Positions 1,162 through 36,860 of a stretch of 39,113 nt of DNA are shown here, piece by piece. Made by a program: the position numbers and the translations under genes. Origin of the DNA: Orenia metallireducens. GTDB lineage: Bacteria; Bacillota; Halanaerobiia; Halobacteroidales; Halobacteroidaceae. The notes under the pieces were generated by a model. That model did no database searches. It saw only the letters and a program-made list of their open reading frames with translations, and was not told where the DNA came from. The stretch's first letter is position 1. Each line of letters begins with the position of its first letter. The stretch spans positions 806,086 to 845,198 of the forward strand of contig NZ_LWDV01000009.1 of the NCBI RefSeq assembly GCF_001693735.1, in the 5' to 3' direction.

Positions 1162-2448
1162 TTATTTAACTACGTTTAACATATAAACCTCATCTTTAGT
1201 ATCATGTCTAACAGTACTACCACTTGAAACAATTTCATCTTGAAAATCATCGTGATTCACATAAGATAAAATCCTGCAATTACGTCCAATCTGAGTATTA
1301 GCTGGAATATGAGCCTTTTTAGCTATCACAGTTAAGCCATTTGTTAATAGATCTGATTTCTCTAAATTAGGAGTATAATCATTCCCAAACCCTATATGGC
1401 AATTTTCCCCAACAACTACATCCTTATCAACTATACATTTACATACTATCGAATCTTTTTTAACAATAGTATTGTTGAATATAATAGAATCTCTAACTAC
1501 TGCCCCTTCTTCAATTATCACTCCTGGAGAGATAACAGAGTTCTCTACCACCCCATTAATAATTGAACCATTGGAGATAAGGCTTGCAATTGCTCTACCT
1601 TTACTTCCAAACTTGACAGGTGGTTCCTCTTCAGTCCTTGTATGAATCCGCCAATTCTTATCATATAAATTCAGTTCTGGTAATGGATCTGTTAATGATA
1701 GATTTGTTTCCCAGAAGGATTTAAGAGTACCAACATCCTTCCAATAGCCTTTATATTCATAGGCAAATACATTGTTATTTTCAATCATCTCTGGAATAAT
1801 ATGATGACCAAAATCAGAATTCTCCTGATCACAGAAACTCTCTAATTTCTCAATTAATACATCTGCTGTAAAGACATAAATCCCCATTGAAGCTAAATTA
1901 CTAGGTGGATTTTCAGGCTTCTCTTTAAAATCTACAATCTGCATATTATTATTTGCTTCTAAAATTCCAAACTGATGGGCATCTTCCCAAGCAACCCTCT
2001 GAGTTGCAATAGTTAAATCTGCATTCTTTTCTGTATGAAATGATATCATTTCATCATAATTCATTTTATATACATGATCTCCAGAGAGAACAACTACATA
2101 TTTAGGATTATGCTTTTTAATGAAATTAATATTTTGGTAAACAGCATGTGCAGTACCTTGATACCAACCACCTTTTCTCCCAGTATAAGGCTGTAATATC
2201 GTTACTCCACCCATTCTGCGATCTAAGTCCCATGGTTTTCCTATGCCAATATGATCATTTAATGATAATGGTAAGTATTGTGTTAAAACTCCAATATCAT
2301 AGATTCCAGAATTGACACAATTACTTAAAGCAAAGTCTATTAATCTAAACTTACCTGCAAAAGGTACACTAGGCTTAGCTCTATTTTCTGATAAAATATC
2401 CAACCTTGTTCCTCTACCACCTGCTAATATTAATGCTAATGTCTTCAT
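1162..2448 (-). CDS. glgC: Glucose-1-phosphate adenylyltransferase, paralogue 1
   Basis: Makes ADP-glucose from ATP and glucose-1-phosphate, the committed step of bacterial glycogen synthesis in the cytoplasm. The 428-residue length is normal. The nucleotide-binding GGRGTRL lies at residues 10-16, followed by AKP at 24-26. The catalytic-Asp motif SGDHVYKM is near residue 125 and the sugar-phosphate-binding FKEKP near 175. The last 150 residues have the hexapeptide-like pattern of the left-handed beta-helix domain. All key motifs are intact, so this is not a degenerate GlgD-type subunit. The start is set by GGAGG 7 nt upstream of the ATG. A close paralogue lies upstream on the same strand, 827 bp away, with its own terminator, so the two are probably separate transcription units. 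Confidence 0.93.
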   Translation of the reverse strand: MKTLALILAGGRGTRLDILSENRAKPSVPFAGKFRLIDFALSNCVNSGIYDIGVLTQYLPLSLNDHIGIGKPWDLDRRMGGVTILQPYTGRKGGWYQGTAHAVYQNINFIKKHNPKYVVVLSGDHVYKMNYDEMISFHTEKNADLTIATQRVAWEDAHQFGILEANNNMQIVDFKEKPENPPSNLASMGIYVFTADVLIEKLESFCDQENSDFGHHIIPEMIENNNVFAYEYKGYWKDVGTLKSFWETNLSLTDPLPELNLYDKNWRIHTRTEEEPPVKFGSKGRAIASLISNGSIINGVVENSVISPGVIIEEGAVVRDSIIFNNTIVKKDSIVCKCIVDKDVVVGENCHIGFGNDYTPNLEKSDLLTNGLTVIAKKAHIPANTQIGRNCRILSYVNHDDFQDEIVSSGSTVRHDTKDEVYMLNVVK

Positions 2449-3059
2449 TATATTCCTCCTAATTATTTGTTTATAGATTATTTTCCAAATAACATCTTAT
2501 AATCTTATAAATATATATTAAGTTAATATTTCATATAAGATATTAATAATCTTCTCTTTAAAACTAGCTATAAATTTGCTATATATGAGCTAATACTATA
2601 TAATTTCTACACATTAATTCCTCCTTATATAAGAATTTATTTTTAAATAATATAAAACAAAAAAATAAAGATAAAGTTTAGATAGTCTTTAAACCCATCT
2701 TAAATCTCTACCTCTTTATATATAGCCAAAGCAATTGTATATATCATATATATTCTTCCTAATACATTTTATTCATAATTTATTGATTTTAATTTAAATA
2801 ATTTGTAATTACTTCTTATACTATAAGATAAGTGGAATTAATAATTTTCATATAGAAAATAAAAATAAAAACTTTTTTTGACACTGATTCCCGCTGATGA
2901 AGATCTGATTTAAAATCTTAATAATTTTTATTTTTTAATCCGTTTTTATCTGCGTAAATCTGCGTCTAAACCTTCTTTTTTATATTAACTTTAGTATGAA
3001 GAACTTTAATTCAATCTATATAATACAAAATTGATATAATTTAGAAGATATTGAACATT

Positions 3060-3130
3060 TGAGTAACTAGTCAGAAGTGATGAATAACCAGCAAGAATCT
3101 AATTTGCTAACTGTTACTCATCACTGCTGT
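3060..3130. repeat. GAGTAAC-type inverted-repeat module
   Basis: AGTGATGAATAACCAG near 3074 pairs with CTGTTACTCATCACT near 3110 to form a long hairpin with one mismatch. Similar modules lie at 16322-16396, 19088-19160 and 25012-25090, always between genes. Confidence 0.5.
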
Positions 3131-3200
3131 AATATAACTATTAATCATTAACTTATATTAAAATTTAAATAATACAATGGATTATAATTATATTCTTACA

Positions 3201-3235
3201 CAAAAAAGACCACTTTAACTTTAAAGCAGTCTTTT
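3201..3235 (-). terminator. Terminator of the second glgC
   Basis: On the minus strand AAAAGACTGCTTTA pairs with the matching arm across a short loop, and a run of six T follows. It lies about 40 nt after the stop codon. Confidence 0.75.
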
Positions 3236-3275
3236 CACAATTATCCCTATTAAATTTTTAAAAATCATTCTGCTA

Positions 3276-4568
3276 TTATCCAGTTTCAACTAAGGAGAGT
3301 TCTTCTTCCATTAATGGTTTAACAGTAGTACCACTTGCTATTGTTTTTTCATCTCCAAAGTCCTTTTCCTTAATATAAGGTAAAACTCTACAATTACGAC
3401 CTATTTTAGTCTTACTTGGAATAGCTGCACCTTTACCGATTACTGTTAGTCCTGTTTTATATAGTTTGGGCTTATCTACGTTAGCTGTTAGATCATTGCC
3501 AAACCCTATATGGGACTTCTCACCAACTACAACCCCTTTATCTATAACTGAGCTAAAGACAATTGAATCTGCTTTAATCCTAGTATTATTAAATATTATC
3601 GAATCCCTTACTACTGCACCTTCTTCAATATAGACTCCAGGTGATATTATCGAATTCTCTACAACACCATTAATGATAGACCCACTTGAAATTAAACTCT
3701 GCTTGGCACTACCTTTGGCTCCAAATTTTGCTGGTGGCTGTTCTGTACTTCTAGTATGAATCTTCCAATTATCATCATAAAGATTCAATTCTGGTACAGG
3801 AGCTGCTAAAGATAGATTGGTCTCCCAGAAAGATTGAATAGTTCCTACATCTCTCCAATATCCCTCAAATTCATAAGAAAATGTCTTAGAACTTTCAATT
3901 ATTGGTGGAATAATATGATGTCCAAAATCAGAATTCTCCTGATTACAGTGCTCTTCTAACATATCAATTAGAAGATCTGCATTAAATACATAAATCCCCA
4001 TTGAAGCTAGGTTATTTAATGGCTCCTCTGGTTTTTCTTTAAAGTCCATAATCTCTAAATTATCATCAGTCTCTAAGATTCCAAAGCGATTTGCCTCTTC
4101 CCAAGGTACTCTTTGGGCAGCAATAGTCAGTTCAGCACCCTTGTTACGATGATAATCTATCATCTGACTATAATCCATCTTATAAACATGATCTCCTGAT
4201 AAAATTAGTACATATTTAGGATTATTCTTCTTTATATAATTGATGTTTTGGCAGACTGCATGGGCTGTTCCTTGGTACCAACCATATTTCTTATCCTTTC
4301 CTGTATAAGGTTGTAGTAGACTAATACCACCTATCTTCCTGTCCAAATCCCAAGGTTTACCTATCCCAATATGGTCATGAAGGGACATAGGAAGATATTG
4401 GGTTAGTACACCTACGTTATAAATTCCCGAGTTTACACAGTTACTTAATGCAAAATCAATTAGTCTTAACTTTCCTGCAAAAGGCACACTAGGTTTAGCA
4501 CGATATTCTGTCAAAACATCTAATCGTGTTCCCCTACCGCCAGCTAAAATTAATGCTAAAGTTTCCAC
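3276..4568 (-). CDS. glgC: Glucose-1-phosphate adenylyltransferase, paralogue 2
   Basis: A second full-length ADP-glucose pyrophosphorylase (430 residues), with long identical blocks shared with its neighbour. It keeps [21 protein letters not shown] and DFKEKP, so catalysis is expected. It differs by a two-residue insertion near residue 93 (TGKDKKYGW) and in the C-terminal regulatory domain. The start is a GTG at 4566-4568 behind AGGAG. In many Firmicutes the enzyme pairs GlgC with a catalytically weak GlgD. Here both copies look active, so a mixed tetramer with two effector responses or simple duplication are both possible. No glgA, glgB or glgP is in view. Confidence 0.92.
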
Positions 4569-5174
4569 ACTACCACTCCTAATTAAATTTTTATCGTTAA
4601 TATAACAATTACACCTTTATTTTGATCATAATCTGCTTCTATTATTACTATCTTATCAATATTATATTTAATTTGAATAAAGGTACAGTAAAGCTCTCTT
4701 CTCACCACTGTTTTATTCGATAAATTACCACAAAATCTAATTTATATAAGAAAATACGCTTGTATACCTTCTTTAAAAGCTTCAATATGTAGAAATAATA
4801 TAAACTGAACAATATAATTGACAGTTCAACTATGTTGTTATATGATATTAGTTGACTTATCAACCAAAGATGTGAACTATCCATATATAAAAGGTAGGAT
4901 GTAAATTACTTATCAATATCTGATTATTAAACTAATATAGTTTTATTCGATTAGAGATCTAGTAATTATTAGAATAGACAAGACAGTTCCTTTATTAATA
5001 AGTTTATATCAAACAAAGAAATCTTGAAAAATATATGGTATCTACGTGGCTGATAGAACCTTAAAAACCTAACATAAGAATTAACAACTGATTAATTTCA
5101 AATTTTTAAGGATAATAATAAAGATACGTTACAATTTAAGGTTTAAAATATAAAAATTTAAAGGAGGAATAAAT
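4569..5174. other. Divergent promoter region, no gene seen
   Basis: This 606-bp AT-rich stretch separates the minus-strand glgC from the plus-strand MATE gene, so it must contain both promoters. I see no strong hairpin, riboswitch motif or coding pattern. A 60-codon frame at 4702-4884 lacks a ribosome-binding site and has the skewed composition of chance AT-rich reading. Confidence 0.4.
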
Positions 5175-6551
5175 ATGGAAGAAAATAAATCAGACCGCTT
5201 AGGAACAGAGCCAATAGTACCTTTATTACTTAAATTATCTATACCATCAATTTTAGGGATGGCGATACAAGCATTATATAATGTAGTAGATAGTATCTAT
5301 ATTGGTAGAGTAAGCACTGAAGCTTTATCAGCACTCTCTCTAGCATTTCCAATACAGATGGTGCTAATAGCCATTGCTGTTGGTACTGGAGTGGGAACAA
5401 GCTCTTTAATCTCTAGATTATTAGGTGAAAAGAAGGAGCATCGTGCTAATAATGTAGCTGAACATGTTATCTTTGTTACAATTGTCTATGGAATTATAGC
5501 TGCTTTAGTAGGTTTCTTCTTTACTAAAGAAATTTTTACTATCTTCACCCAAGACCCTATACTACTTGAATTGGGTGTAGAATATACTAAAATTATCTTC
5601 ATCGGCTCTTTAGCAATGTTCTTCCCAATGATAGCTAATAATATCCTCCGTGGCGAAGGAAACACTATCATGCCAATGGTCACATTACTAATTGGTGCAA
5701 TCTTAAATATTATCTTAGATCCTTTCTTTATCTTTGGAATTGGAATATTTCCTGAATTGGGCGTAGCGGGAGCAGCCTATGCAACAGTTATCTCAAGAAT
5801 AATCAGTGGATTATTTATACTCTTTATCCTATTTAGTGATAAGAATCAGATTAAATTAAAATTAGAGGAGTTCCAATTTGATCTAAGTATTATCAAAGGA
5901 ATTTATCAAGTTGGTTTCCCTGCAATGATTATGCAACTATTAGCAAGTGTCATGATTGCAGGGGTTAATATGATTGTAGGGGGTTATAACTTAACAGCTA
6001 TTGCTGTTATGGGGGTCTACTTTAGATTACAGTCCTTTGTCTTTATGCCAGTCTTTGGTTTAAATCAAGGATTTATGCCGATAGTAGGATATAATTATGG
6101 TCATAACAATCCTCAAAGAATGAAAAAGACGATTAAATACTCTATCTTAATCGCTTTCTCTTTTACCACAGCAGGTCTTATAGTATTTCAATTGTTCCCT
6201 AAAGAGTTATTATTATTATTTAATAAAGATCAAGAGTTATTAAGTATTGGAGAGGTTGCATTAAGAAGAATCAGTTTGGCCTTTCCTATAATTGGTCCTG
6301 CTATTATCGGCTCCACTACCTTCCAAGCTATTGGAAAGGGATTTCCAAGTCTACTACTTTCATTCTTAAGGCAGATGATATTACTCTTACCGATTATGTA
6401 TATATTAGGTGAGTTGTTTGGCTTAGATGCACTATGGTTTTCCTTCCCAATCTCTGAATTAATAGCAACAATTCTAATGATATTCTGGTTAAAATCTACT
6501 TTAAAAGAGGTCTTTTCTAGGATGAGAAAGAGAAATTTAGCTATTAATTAA
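5175..6551 (+). CDS. MATE family efflux transporter
   Basis: A 458-residue polytopic membrane protein of normal length for the MATE family, which exports cationic drugs and metabolites in exchange for Na+ or H+. Family-typical stretches are LLKLSIPSILGMAIQALYNV near residue 18, VDSIYIGRV near 38, the NNILRGEGN segment near 155 and FGLNQGFMPIVGYNYG near 295, the last in the second half. Hydrophobicity fits two bundles of six helices. AAAGGAGG lies 8 nt upstream of the ATG. The gene stands alone: it faces away from glgC and ends in its own terminator overlapping the stop codon. The substrate cannot be read from sequence. Confidence 0.93.
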   Translation: MEENKSDRLGTEPIVPLLLKLSIPSILGMAIQALYNVVDSIYIGRVSTEALSALSLAFPIQMVLIAIAVGTGVGTSSLISRLLGEKKEHRANNVAEHVIFVTIVYGIIAALVGFFFTKEIFTIFTQDPILLELGVEYTKIIFIGSLAMFFPMIANNILRGEGNTIMPMVTLLIGAILNIILDPFFIFGIGIFPELGVAGAAYATVISRIISGLFILFILFSDKNQIKLKLEEFQFDLSIIKGIYQVGFPAMIMQLLASVMIAGVNMIVGGYNLTAIAVMGVYFRLQSFVFMPVFGLNQGFMPIVGYNYGHNNPQRMKKTIKYSILIAFSFTTAGLIVFQLFPKELLLLFNKDQELLSIGEVALRRISLAFPIIGPAIIGSTTFQAIGKGFPSLLLSFLRQMILLLPIMYILGELFGLDALWFSFPISELIATILMIFWLKSTLKEVFSRMRKRNLAIN

Positions 6552-6580
6552 AAGAATCCACTCATATGAGTGGATTCTTT
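6551..6580 (+). terminator. Terminator of the MATE gene
   Basis: AAAGAATCCACTCAT pairs perfectly with ATGAGTGGATTCTTT. It begins at the last base of the stop codon. Confidence 0.8.
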
Positions 6581-6691
6581 GTATTTCTAGATATTTAATT
6601 TTAAAATTATATTTATATAGAATTATGATGAATATAATTTATTTTAGAATTAAAATCTTTTTATTCTCCATCCTTCCTACTCTCATAATAC

Positions 6692-8851
6692 TTACCTTTT
6701 AAAACTCTCTGTATAAATGTTAACCTGATCACCATCATTTAAAGGCTCTATTAATTGTGCCTTCTTACCGTTTTTTTCAATAATTAGTTTACCACTTAAA
6801 GAAGTAGGAATCTTATAGTTGATATAATCTAATAGCTGATTCAACCTAATCCCTCCGCTTTGATATTCAATTACATCTCCAGTATTAATTACATCATCTA
6901 ATTGGGCAGGTTTGTTATTCTTTAGCAATTTATAATCTTTAGCAGGAACAGTTATTGGCTTATCATTAAAAATGATACTAAAAGTTGCTAAAGTAGCATC
7001 TTGATCTAATACATCCTCTATCTTCAACCTCTTTTCATTGTTTTCAATAAAGGTTAGCTCATCACCATCATCTATCTCCATATCTAAAGTTGCTGCTTGA
7101 CCATTTAACTCCAAGCGATAATTCTGATATCTATACTCCCGTTCTTCATCATTGAGTATATAGTTAATCCTACTCTTTTTTAGTTGAGCTACAGAGATAT
7201 CCATAATATCCTGTAATACATCTCCTACAGTCTGGACAATTGTATACTCTATCTTGTCACCATCAGCCAATTTACTATTTAAGTTAGCTCTTTTTCCATT
7301 TTTATAATAAATTCCTTCTATAATCTGCTTATCACCATTAATCAATATCTCTCTTTTTGGCAGATCAGCAACTACATCAGCTATTGTACCTTCTCCTGCT
7401 CTACCACTATCACCTAACTGAATCTCTAAGGAATCACCCTGCTTAATCTTACTATCAATACTGCCTTCTTCTCCATTAATAAATACCTTACCAGAAGTGC
7501 CCATAGTACCAGGTATCATCTTCAAGTTACCATTGACTTCTATTCCTAGGGCAAGTCCTGGAGTAGCCTTCAATGCTTTGATATCAAGCTCTGCTGCCAA
7601 TAAGGCATCAGAAACCTTAGGCTCAGTTAAGGTGAATAAATGTAAAGGATCTCCATTTAACTGAATATCTATAAAGTTTGCCCGACTTTTATTAACTTTA
7701 CAGCTCATAGCTATTCCAAAAGGGGTAATAGATTGTGTTCCAGAGATACCTTCAATTCTACCAGTTACCCCTTGAATCTCTTTACCATCTTTGACCCCTA
7801 CACGATTAATCGGTAACTCTAGCTGTTGGGCTAACTTCTCTTTTAATAATGGGGTCAAACTACCACCACCGATACAGATAACAGCCTGTGGCGCTCTGTT
7901 ATTTAACTTTAAGATAGCTTGAGCTATCAATTCAGCCAATTTATCAATCTTAGCCTCTATCATCTTGATAATACTTGCAGTAGAGATAGCAACAGTCTGG
8001 TCTAAAATATCCTTCATCTCTATCTCATCTTGAGAGGTCAACTCCCGTTTAATCCTTTCAGCAGTATGGTAATCTACCATATAATTCTCGCAAATGGCTT
8101 CAGTTATCTCATCACCAGCTACTGGAACCATATCATAACCAATAATAGCTCCATCTCTAGTAATAGCAATATCAGAAGTACCTGCTCCAATATCTACTAA
8201 GGCTAGATTAAAGTTATACATCTGTTGTGGAACAATAATATTAGCAGCAGCTATTGGCTCTAAGGTCAGATGATCCACCTCTAGATCAGCTTGTCTAATT
8301 ACAGTTAATAGAGAATCAACTACTATTCTAGGCAAGAAAGTAGCAATCAAATCAACCTCTATCACCTTTCCACTCTGACTAATTAAACTTCCAACCTTAA
8401 TTCCATCAAGTTTACTTTGTAATAAGGTATAACCAACAAAATGATAGCCACTTGCCTTATCCCTATCTTTACCTGCTGCCAACTTTTTTTGGGCATCCTG
8501 TACAGCAGCAAACTCTAACATCTTGACATCATCTAAATCGACCTCTCTCTTATTCTTAAACTCTATCTTATGGTGACCTGTCAAAGTCTTTAAAGCACGA
8601 CCTGCTGCTGCAATCCCTACCTTCTTTAATTTTATATTGGTCTTCTCCTCTAACCTCCTTTTAATCTCCTTTACTTGCTCTGCTACATCGGTTACATTAT
8701 GGATTTGACCATCTAACATCGACCTACTTTTATGTTCAATAACTTCAGAAGCTATTAACTCCAAACCATTCTCTGTTCCTTCCAGTACAGCTCCAACTAC
8801 CGTTCTCGTCCCTATATCTAAAGCAAAAATTACATCATCTCTCATCTCCAT
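6692..8851 (-). CDS. FtsA-like ATPase with repeated C-terminal modules
   Basis: A 719-residue cytoplasmic protein. Residues 1-390 have the actin/Hsp70-fold ATPase of the FtsA/PilM group: phosphate-1 loop ALDIGTRTVVG at 10-20, phosphate-2 loop LVDIGAGTSDIAI at 218-230 and adenosine motif ICIGGGSLTPL at 325-335. An FtsA-type 1C insert is likely at about 90-190. Ordinary FtsA is about 420 residues. Here residues 435-719 hold about five modules of the form NG..A.L...I.DGD.I (near 440-478, 505-536, 581-601, 628-662 and 691-713), reminiscent of beta-grasp folds. Its SD site lies within the end of the preceding secreted-protein gene, so the two are translationally linked. The family is often annotated as a cell-division protein, but no division genes are nearby and the role is unknown. 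Confidence 0.8.
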   Translation of the reverse strand: MEMRDDVIFALDIGTRTVVGAVLEGTENGLELIASEVIEHKSRSMLDGQIHNVTDVAEQVKEIKRRLEEKTNIKLKKVGIAAAGRALKTLTGHHKIEFKNKREVDLDDVKMLEFAAVQDAQKKLAAGKDRDKASGYHFVGYTLLQSKLDGIKVGSLISQSGKVIEVDLIATFLPRIVVDSLLTVIRQADLEVDHLTLEPIAAANIIVPQQMYNFNLALVDIGAGTSDIAITRDGAIIGYDMVPVAGDEITEAICENYMVDYHTAERIKRELTSQDEIEMKDILDQTVAISTASIIKMIEAKIDKLAELIAQAILKLNNRAPQAVICIGGGSLTPLLKEKLAQQLELPINRVGVKDGKEIQGVTGRIEGISGTQSITPFGIAMSCKVNKSRANFIDIQLNGDPLHLFTLTEPKVSDALLAAELDIKALKATPGLALGIEVNGNLKMIPGTMGTSGKVFINGEEGSIDSKIKQGDSLEIQLGDSGRAGEGTIADVVADLPKREILINGDKQIIEGIYYKNGKRANLNSKLADGDKIEYTIVQTVGDVLQDIMDISVAQLKKSRINYILNDEEREYRYQNYRLELNGQAATLDMEIDDGDELTFIENNEKRLKIEDVLDQDATLATFSIIFNDKPITVPAKDYKLLKNNKPAQLDDVINTGDVIEYQSGGIRLNQLLDYINYKIPTSLSGKLIIEKNGKKAQLIEPLNDGDQVNIYTESFKR

Positions 8852-34048: not shown

Positions 34049-35310
34049 TCAAATATCTATTTTAGAATGAATAAATTGGATTGCCTTCTCCACACCATTC
34101 TCTAAACGGACTTGACTTCCGATATAATCAGCTTTCTCAATTAATTCTTGATTATTAATAACCTCTTCTATTGCTCTGCTTAATCTATCAACAGATAGAT
34201 CTCTCTCAAATAATGGTTCAGCAGCCACCCCAATTGAATGCATTAATCTTGCCCAATATGGCTGATCACCAGAGAAAGGGCAGATCACCATTGGTTTTCC
34301 TGCTCTTAAAGTAGCTGCTGTTGTTCCTGCTCCTCCATGATGAATTACAGCAGAACATTTAGGAAATAACCAGTTATGGGGATATAATCGAGTACAAATA
34401 TATCTGAAGAAAGATTTTTAAACTTCAATCCACTCCAGCCTGTCAATATAATAGCACGTTCTTTTGTCTTCTTTAAAGCCTCTAACAGAATTTCTTTAAA
34501 TTTTTTAGGCTCTTTTAAAGTTAAGCTACTAAAACTGATACAAAGGGGGGGCTGCCCCTCCTTTAGAAATTCCAACAATTCCTTTGGCGCTTCCCATTTA
34601 TTCCCCTCTTCTAAAAACCAATATCCAGAGATACAGACATTACAACTATCCCAATCAGCAGGTGGTCTTATAACTTTTGGGCTACAACAATAGATAATAG
34701 GTATTGGTTTCCCATTTAAAATCACATCATTGCGGAAAATTGATTTCCTTGGAAGATTTAGTTCTTCTTTTCGCCATTGATTTACAATCCCATGGAAGGG
34801 TATAGTAGTGAACCTGTTGATGGCATAAGTAAATTTATTCAACAAACCTAAATTAAGGGGGATTTCAAAGGGGAATATAGGATTAGAGAATTCAGCTGTC
34901 GGGGTTAACGCTGGAATAGGAAAAGCAATCATCGCAGGAATCTCTAACTTCTCTACAATATCATAAGCCCCAAAAGCCTTCGGATGATATATGATCAATT
35001 CAGCATCTTTACTTGCACTCCATAAATCTTTTAAACTCTGCTTAATTAAAGGAAAGACGAGACTTTTCATATTTCTGATAATCTCAATTGGATTTCCACT
35101 CAACATCTTCTTGCCTTCTTCTGATTGTATAAGCTCTTGATAATCTACTCGAATAGGATAGAAAGGAATTTTATATTTTCTTACTAAATTTTCAAAATTC
35201 TTTGCTGTACAAAGTGTTACATCATGCCCCTTATCCTGCAGCCCAATAGCTAAGGGAATATAAGGTTGTACATCTCCTCTAGTTCCCAGTGTGAGAATTT
35301 TTATCTTCAT
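34049..35310 (-). pseudogene. Frameshifted MGT-type glycosyltransferase
   Basis: Two frames together make one complete GT1-family glycosyltransferase of about 420 residues, similar to UDP-glucose:sterol-type and macrolide-type enzymes. The first frame (35310 to 34345) starts MKIKILTLGTRGDVQPYIPL and runs into the C-terminal domain as far as DYIP. The second continues HNWLFPKCSAVIHHGGAGTT, the donor-binding signature, to 34049. The join lies at the four-G run 34378-34381: one more base there restores DYIPHNW and an uninterrupted frame. This is a single-base loss in a homopolymer, so it is either a recent inactivation, a phase-variable site or a sequencing error. SD AAAGGGAAGG precedes the ATG. 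The likely substrate is a lipid or polyketide. Confidence 0.85.
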
Positions 35311-35422: not shown

Positions 35423-35763
35423 TTATTCAACCTCTTCATTTAAAAGAACCATATGAATATGATCCTCCCACTTCCCATTTATCGTTAAATATTTTTTGGC
35501 TAGCCCTTCATTATAAAATCCTAATTTTTGAACAACTCTTAAGGAAGGATTGTTCTTTGGCATAATATTTGCTTCTATCCTATGCAACTTAAACTCTTCA
35601 AATAAAAAGTTAATCGCTTCTTCTAATGCCTCTGTCATATATCCATTATTTACTTCTTCCTTATCTAAATGATAGCCTAAATAACAAGATTGAAAACACC
35701 CTCTTACTATATTATCCAGCTCATCACTATCTGTTAGAAATAGAGCTACCCTCTTGCTTTTCT
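35423..35763 (-). pseudogene. N-terminally truncated GNAT acetyltransferase (RimJ-like)
   Basis: The frame is open from just after a TAG at about 35763 to 35423 and reads like the last two thirds of a RimJ/RimL-type N-acetyltransferase. It has SCYLGYHLDKEE, GYMTEALEEAINFLF, the acetyl-CoA-site region HRIEANIMPKNNPSLRV and LGFYNEGLAKKYLTINGKWE. The first 80 or so residues are absent, there is no start codon or SD at its beginning, and a few residues seem lost between DSDEL and NIVRG compared with the family. Only an internal ATG at 35638 would allow a 71-residue product. It directly follows the dapF-like stop codon, so it is probably a remnant left by a deletion. Confidence 0.75.
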
Positions 35764-35772
35764 AAAATTAGT

Positions 35773-36627
35773 TTACTCTCTAATTTTTGACCACATATCA
35801 CTCGTAAAATCACCTTTTGCCACACTTGATACTTCACCAGTCATATAAACACCTCCATCTTCCTTAATCTCTACTTCTATTTCTCCACCAGGCATATGAA
35901 CTGTTATATCTTTATCAACTAAACCTAATTTATAAGCAGCATTTGCAGCAGCACAACTACTACTTCCTGATGCCATTGTATAACCTGCACCTCTCTCATA
36001 TATCTCTACCTGTATATTATTCCTATCAATAACCTTTAAAAGTTGCATATTTATTCTATTAGGAAAGACATCATGGTTTTCTACATAAGGACCTAAATCT
36101 AATGCTAATTCTTTTGTAACCTCCTCCATTGGAATAACACAATGAGGATTTCCTATTGAAAGGCAGGTTACTTCAAAATCTTCTCCATTTATCTCTAAAT
36201 TTTCATTAACTACATCACGAATTTCTCCTTTTACAGGAATTAAATCACTTTGAAATGTTACTGTACCCATATCGACTTTTATTAAATTTGCAGTATCATC
36301 TAATACTTCAACTAAGACTTCTCCTCCTAATGTTTGAAGCTTAAATTCTTTAGTTTCTACATAATTTTGATCTACTAAGTACTTAGAAAATATTCTAATT
36401 CCATTTCCACTTTTCTCCGCTTCACTCCCATCTGGATTTAAAATCTTTAATTTAATCTTATCATCCTCAAATATTGGTCCAAATAAAATCCCATCAGAAC
36501 CTATCCCAAAATTTCTGTGGCAAATAAGTTTTATCGCCTCTTCATTTAAATCAATTTCAATTTTATTTGGATCGATAACTATATAATCATTTCCTAAAGC
36601 ATGATACTTATAAAAATCATCAATCAT
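35773..36627 (-). CDS. dapF: DapF-family epimerase homologue lacking both catalytic cysteines
   Basis: A 284-residue protein with the two-lobed DapF fold pattern (FYKYHALGNDYIVID at 5-19, NFGIGSDGILFG at 39-50, GNPHCV at 159-164). DapF converts LL- to meso-diaminopimelate for lysine and peptidoglycan synthesis, using one cysteine in CGNG and one in ACGTGA. Here these motifs read KSGNG, with Ser73, and ASGSSS, with Ser220. The usual GET before the second motif reads GYT. Either serines serve as acid and base, or the reaction differs. I chose the ATG at 36627 behind AAAGGAGAT. The symbol marks the family only. A standard dapF elsewhere in the genome would suggest a new role. Confidence 0.75.
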   Translation of the reverse strand: MIDDFYKYHALGNDYIVIDPNKIEIDLNEEAIKLICHRNFGIGSDGILFGPIFEDDKIKLKILNPDGSEAEKSGNGIRIFSKYLVDQNYVETKEFKLQTLGGEVLVEVLDDTANLIKVDMGTVTFQSDLIPVKGEIRDVVNENLEINGEDFEVTCLSIGNPHCVIPMEEVTKELALDLGPYVENHDVFPNRINMQLLKVIDRNNIQVEIYERGAGYTMASGSSSCAAANAAYKLGLVDKDITVHMPGGEIEVEIKEDGGVYMTGEVSSVAKGDFTSDMWSKIRE

Positions 36628-36860
36628 AATATCTATCTCCTTTATATTATTTTTATTTATCACTTATAAAATAAAAGGTATACATTTATTTATATATAAC
36701 AAATATTCACAATATATGTTTATAATGCTGAATATAATAACTAGAAAACCAATTTATTGATTTTCTATATTAAAATTTCATTTATACCATTATAATAATA
36801 TATTTACGCTATATATTCAAATATGAATATTAAATATAATTCAAAAATATATCTTACAAT

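Follow-up and report, generated by a model that had tools for sequence, protein, structure and literature searches.

Serine Residues Occupy Both Catalytic Cysteine Positions in a DapF-like Protein of Orenia metallireducens and in an Apparently Undescribed Sister Branch of DapF

Introduction

The stretch of Orenia metallireducens DNA analyzed here (39,113 bp of contig NZ_LWDV01000009.1; hereinafter, the window) contains a gene whose product resembles DapF, an enzyme of lysine and cell-wall synthesis, but carries serine at the positions of both catalytic cysteines, which raises the question of what reaction such a protein could catalyze and by what means. It has long been asked how, in the absence of a cofactor, a weak base can abstract an alpha-proton of very low acidity, and the accepted answer depends centrally on the pair of thiolates; if a natural Ser/Ser protein indeed does the job of DapF, it would test that answer directly. 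In addition, DapF has been studied as an antibacterial target, and the serine form would presumably be insensitive to inhibitors that alkylate the active-site thiols. Annotation pipelines call proteins of this form ordinary DapF, and therefore the difference is hidden in databases.

Results

The gene is located on the (-) strand at positions 35773..36627 of the window, with an ATG at 36627 and a stop codon ending at 35773, and its intact ORF is translated without interruption into a protein of 284 aa. The start codon at 36627 was preferred over that of a longer ORF beginning with GTG (36663) because a Shine–Dalgarno sequence, AAGGAG (36637..36642, (-) strand), is present just 5' of the ATG, within the upstream sequence ATATAAAGGAGATAGATATT directly preceding it. 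According to the sequence and the alignments, Ser73 (codon AGT, 36409..36411, (-) strand; motif EKSGNG, context AEKSGNGIRI) and Ser220 (codon TCA, 35968..35970, (-) strand; motif ASGSSS, context ERGAGYTMASGSSS) occupy the positions of the DapF catalytic cysteines of the N- and C-lobes, respectively. The codons of two candidate helper residues, Lys72 (36412..36414, (-) strand) and Tyr216 (35980..35982, (-) strand), were identified by residue comparison between the serine group and the cysteine enzymes.

The protein matched the DapF equivalog TIGR00652 over its whole length with a score of 251.1 bits (cut-off 114.65), and both of its PF01678 domains scored above the cut-off, while the scores against the CntK equivalog NF033599 (26.7 bits, cut-off 300) and the bifunctional DapF/glutamate racemase NF038284 (55.7 bits, cut-off 350) missed theirs. 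The AlphaFold2 model was confident (pLDDT 92.6) and had the two-lobed DapF fold; in structure comparison, it matched DapF structures over the full length with Z of about 28–36. Thus, the preliminary description of the gene as a DapF homologue with both catalytic cysteines changed to serine is borne out by the reading frame, the two residues and the profile score. Since the pair of cysteines that defines DapF was looked for and is missing, Ser73 and Ser220 standing in its place, the name of an ordinary DapF is not appropriate for the serine form. A second, cysteine-containing dapF, which the preliminary description had suggested looking for, was found on the same contig of the 3.47 Mb genome (G000:C9:336685-337515); it encodes a canonical Cys/Cys DapF that is 39% identical to the Ser/Ser protein. 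The same contig also carries a second MurE-family protein without the DNPR motif (L121, G000:C9:527585-528958).

Several other genes of the window should be mentioned. Directly 3' of the serine-form gene, at about 35426-35761 on the (-) strand, there is a pseudogene-like remnant which, judged by eye, resembles an N-terminally truncated acetyltransferase. It is followed at 34049-35310 (-) by a relative of rifamycin/macrolide-type glycosyltransferases, apparently split into ORFs 34345-35310 and 34049-34291. Two adjacent similar genes, 1162-2448 and 3276-4568 (-), resemble those of glucose-1-phosphate adenylyltransferase and probably arose by tandem duplication.

Nine relatives of the protein were found at 50–88% identity, all with SGNG and ASG[ST]SS, in Orenia, Sporomusa, two cyanobacteria, a spirochaete, three Opitutae/Puniceicoccaceae and a Desulfobacterales bacterium. 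The relative from Orenia metallireducens was 88% identical and had the same serine residues, and the proteins from other phyla were 50–67% identical; the nearest cysteine proteins were only about 40% identical, far from the few percent of divergence at which the preliminary description would have seen isolated decay or a sequence error. Altogether, 55 Ser/Ser members including that of the window, as well as one diverged plasmid copy (56 in total), were read, and all had serine at both sites; they span Bacillota, Halanaerobiia, Cyanobacteriota, Spirochaetota, Verrucomicrobiota and Desulfobacterales. Cysteine was present at both sites in 58/58 canonical proteins read, and no mixed Ser/Cys protein occurred among the 56 Ser/Ser and 58 Cys/Cys proteins read with a recognizable motif pair. 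Judging from these sequences, the strict pairing of Ser73 and Ser220 is not a matter of chance.

In a maximum-likelihood tree constructed after removal of the two catalytic columns (101 rows, with one protein present twice), a branch with SH-aLRT 100 separated every Ser/Ser protein from the Cys/Cys proteins, so that the split between the two groups was complete; the placement of the long-branch members L045 and L046 is less certain. Between the two Orenia genes, dN was 0.061 and dS was 0.401 (dN/dS about 0.15). Ser73 was encoded by AGY codons in 39/55 members and by TCN codons in 16/55, and Ser220 by TCN in 48/55 and AGY in 7/55; the use of both serine codon families at both sites means that the codons have varied but the residue has been retained. 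The proposal that the paired change marks a distinct subfamily rather than decay, to be checked by whether relatives with SGNG and ASGSSS form a clade, is therefore upheld by the tree, the substitution rates and the codons. No description of a natural Ser/Ser DapF was found in the open-access literature searched, although a report elsewhere is possible, and a search of the same kind on the proline racemase superfamily likewise gave no relevant report. On the sequences compared, the Ser/Ser proteins constitute a widespread, apparently undescribed sister branch of DapF.

In the plasmid and phage collections, all relatives had less than 40% identity; those from plasmids included the diverged Ser/Ser copy L045 of Agrobacterium vitis plasmid pRvVAT039a, with motifs RSGNG and SSGSG. 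This copy lies in a run of genes (2412-6858) with those for an iron-response regulator, a fatty acid desaturase, an iron-containing redox enzyme and a 2OG-Fe dioxygenase, possibly a biosynthetic cluster. Among viral contigs, the first scan gave no relatives, and an alignment scan gave one diverged Ser/Ser locus, L046. In some Spirochaetota (e.g., G577, G581 and G540), DapF-like segments lie within open frames of about 1300–1500 aa, suggesting fusion to other enzymes.

In crystal structures of Anabaena DapF, DAP is contacted by N13, N66, N77, N164, N197, E215, R216 and T226 (PMC12039745), which align with N13, N64, N75, N160, N193, E211, R212 and S222 of the window protein. Seven of these positions were invariant in 55/55 serine proteins, and the eighth, S222, was Ser in 53/55 and Thr in 2/55; the preservation of all eight DAP contacts argues against a quite different substrate. 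Fixed or nearly fixed changes in the serine group were Phe15 to Tyr, Met72 to Lys, Cys79 to Ile, Glu195 to Gln, hydrophobic 216 to Tyr or His, and Gly223-Ala224 to Ser-Ser. Position 72 was Lys in 53/55 serine proteins (the others being one Gln and one Thr) and Met in 58/58 cysteine enzymes read. No basic residue is noted close to the two catalytic thiols in the published DapF structures (PMC12039745), and the near-invariant lysine beside Ser73 is therefore a real difference; however, as it is not absolute, it is unlikely to be the sole base. The preliminary description also listed GYT in place of GET as a departure from the motif, which does not hold, since position 216 is variable in cysteine enzymes (I/V/L/A/E/M, with E in only 4/58); what deserves attention is that the serine group fixes Tyr (52/55), rarely His (3/55), at this position. 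A relocated catalytic cysteine was considered and rejected: Cys36 and Cys163 are kept in the serine group but largely in cysteine enzymes too, and hence are not new.

An unrelated enzyme would predict that canonical DapF is kept equally often, and the co-occurrence of the two forms in genomes thus tests that reading. The serine form was the sole DapF-family protein found in 41 genomes, and a PF01678 search (E ≤ 0.01) of 35 serine-only genomes gave no second protein above the family cut-off. In 113 sampled genomes of one Verrucomicrobiota class, 29 had the serine form and 0/29 of these had canonical DapF, while a canonical-scoring DapF was present in 80/84 genomes without the serine form (Fisher p = 5e-23, ignoring shared ancestry); all 29 serine proteins were read, and of the 80 canonical-scoring proteins, one was read (CGNG) and the others were assigned by score. 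This exclusivity may reflect one or a few ancestral replacements. The serine form was found in four of 244 cyanobacteria (alone in G239 and G395), in 12 of 247 Spirochaetota (five alone, seven together with a cysteine DapF) and in three of 59 Halanaerobiia (alone in one, a Halanaerobiaceae genome); it was also the sole DapF in one MAG each of Gloeobacterales and Desulfobacterales. Both forms were present in Orenia (two genomes), Sporomusa, Dulcicalothrix and one more cyanobacterium, as well as in the seven spirochaetes. By p-values that take no account of shared ancestry, the serine-only association was very strong in Verrucomicrobiota and was also seen in Cyanobacteriota; no statistical avoidance between the two forms was seen in Spirochaetota and Halanaerobiia. 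It should be noted that canonical DapF may also be lost without the serine form, because no DapF-family match was obtained at the threshold used in four Verrucomicrobiota genomes and in twelve genomes from a single genus of Halanaerobiaceae. In that genus (code g15), this applied to 12/12 sampled genomes.

Of the 32 serine-only genomes tested, 28 had a MurE carrying DNPR, the motif of the meso-DAP type, and no MurE match was obtained in the four serine-only Verrucomicrobiota G054, G105, G119 and G147. These four form one small clade in the tree of the serine form, and DapL was found in three of them; perhaps they have no DAP wall and use DAP for lysine only. DapL, which makes LL-DAP, was present in 16/29 Verrucomicrobiota with the serine form and in the Desulfobacterales MAG, and matches to DAP dehydrogenase, which provides a bypass, in only 3/35 serine-only genomes. 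Twelve genomes had the whole chain, namely, DapL, the serine form only, MurE with DNPR and no dehydrogenase match; in two of them (G117 and G153), the contig bearing the matches approximately equals the genome in length. Where LL-DAP is supplied by DapL and a meso-DAP-type MurE is present without a DAP dehydrogenase, something must epimerize DAP; judging from gene content, in the whole-chain genomes this would have to be the serine form, unless an unknown enzyme does so. For the 41 serine-only genomes, it is thus implied that the serine form takes the DAP epimerase step; Orenia has a cysteine DapF as well.

No conserved gene neighborhood was found across the first ten serine-form loci. The recognizable neighbors were scattered and included lysA, leuA (three times), aroA (twice) and carB; in Dulcicalothrix, the serine-form gene lies about 50 bp 3' of lysA (TIGR01048, 464 bits) in the same direction.

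Discussion

On the sequences and gene content, the serine group most likely still epimerizes LL-DAP to meso-DAP, or acts on a very close bis-amino acid, with the pair of thiols replaced by two serines. From the retained binding residues and the sole occurrence of this form in many genomes needing meso-DAP, we infer the DAP epimerase activity, and the serine form very probably works like DapF. It also appears rather probable that a thiol-free, cofactor-independent Ser/Ser (plus Lys/Tyr) DAP epimerase has replaced the cysteine enzyme in several bacterial lineages, in which case the two-thiol mechanism would not be required. Orenia probably obtained the serine form by horizontal transfer, as a second epimerase in addition to the cysteine enzyme.

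A Cys-to-Ser change is a standard means of hindering catalysis in DapF-type enzymes (PMC12039745), and the HisR single mutants C67S and C209S are greatly slowed (PMC11602996). Since single mutants of this related racemase lose most of their activity, a plain Cys-to-Ser substitution would not be enough. The proposed mechanism still uses two bases for a 1,1-proton transfer at the alpha-carbon: Ser73, at the N-terminus of helix 2, and Ser220, at that of helix 4, would serve as donor and acceptor. Because the hydroxyl of serine is much less acidic than the thiol of cysteine, activation by newly fixed adjacent residues is proposed: Lys72 may act beside Ser73, and Tyr/His216 with Ser223/Ser224 near Ser220. 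Alternatively, Lys72, Tyr/His216 and Ser223/Ser224 might themselves be the bases. Of the suggestion in the preliminary description that the subfamily has another substrate or mechanism, the part concerning the mechanism is plausible and probably needed, whereas another substrate is disfavored by the eight retained contacts and by the serine form being the sole DapF beside a meso-DAP-type MurE.

The strongest alternative, unlikely in our estimation, is that the DapF frame here serves another substrate (e.g., a lanthionine-like compound, another bis-amino acid or, in secondary metabolism, a D-amino acid), the protein being a racemase, epimerase, dehydratase or eliminase with chemistry which a serine pair would suit. 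In hydroxyproline dehydratases, which have the same fold, replacement of a catalytic cysteine goes with changed chemistry, and the retention of canonical DapF in Orenia, Sporomusa, Dulcicalothrix and seven spirochaetes, as well as the cluster-like setting of the diverged A. vitis plasmid copy, would fit such a role, which no conserved neighborhood fixes. However, all DAP-contact positions are kept, among them the distal pair E211/R212, the score against the histidine racemase model is weak, the recognizable neighbors are often primary amino-acid genes, and in the 41 genomes where the serine form is alone, a meso-DAP-type MurE accompanies it in nearly all of those tested.

It is improbable that the protein is a catalytically dead relative of DapF serving as a DAP-binding sensor or regulatory partner. 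Retained binding residues with both catalytic residues changed are a pseudoenzyme-like pattern, and E. coli DapF is known to moonlight as a partner of RppH (PMC4227774); nevertheless, both sites are strictly Ser, never Ala, Gly or mixed, with both AGY and TCN codons in use, new conserved polar residues surround the site, and many genomes needing meso-DAP have no other DapF-family protein. Isolated decay or a sequencing error in one Orenia genome, which the decayed appearance of the adjacent acetyltransferase-like and glycosyltransferase genes might suggest, has a negligible probability, being already refuted by the cross-phylum conservation of the serines, including their presence in the 88%-identical Orenia protein, and contradicted by the excess of dS over dN.

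With DAP epimerization by the serine form as the preferred reading, the dozens of serine-only genomes may rely on a variant of a textbook cysteine enzyme that works without thiols.

Comparison with Known Systems

Proline racemase, hydroxyproline epimerase and trans-3-hydroxyproline dehydratase share the two-lobed fold with the window protein (Z 22–26), but have only 10–15% identity and different substrates. To our knowledge, the known natural changes in these families affect one residue of the catalytic pair. The histidine racemases HisR and CntK have the same fold, with 19% identity in the structural alignment and a weak profile score; they are Cys/Cys enzymes with a cofactor-independent two-base mechanism (PMC11602996). 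The top structural match, tied with DapF, was the O-ureidoserine racemase DcsC (7vdy; Z 36.5, 28% identity in the structural alignment). DcsC is a cysteine enzyme of an antibiotic pathway. The closest known system is DapF itself (TIGR00652; Anabaena 9mro, Arabidopsis 3ejx and Haemophilus 1gqz), with which the window protein shares the full-length fold (Z 34–36, 33–38% identity), the eight substrate contacts, the length and the profile score, whereas the catalytic pair is Cys/Cys there and Ser/Ser here, and Met72, Cys79, Phe15, Glu195, Gly223/Ala224 and the hydrophobic residue 216 of DapF are changed. The laboratory DapF mutants C73S (2q9h) and C217S (2q9j) have the same changes at the same positions, and their structures align with the model; however, these are single, man-made substitutions in an otherwise unchanged enzyme, whereas in the natural group both residues are changed together with additional fixed residues nearby.
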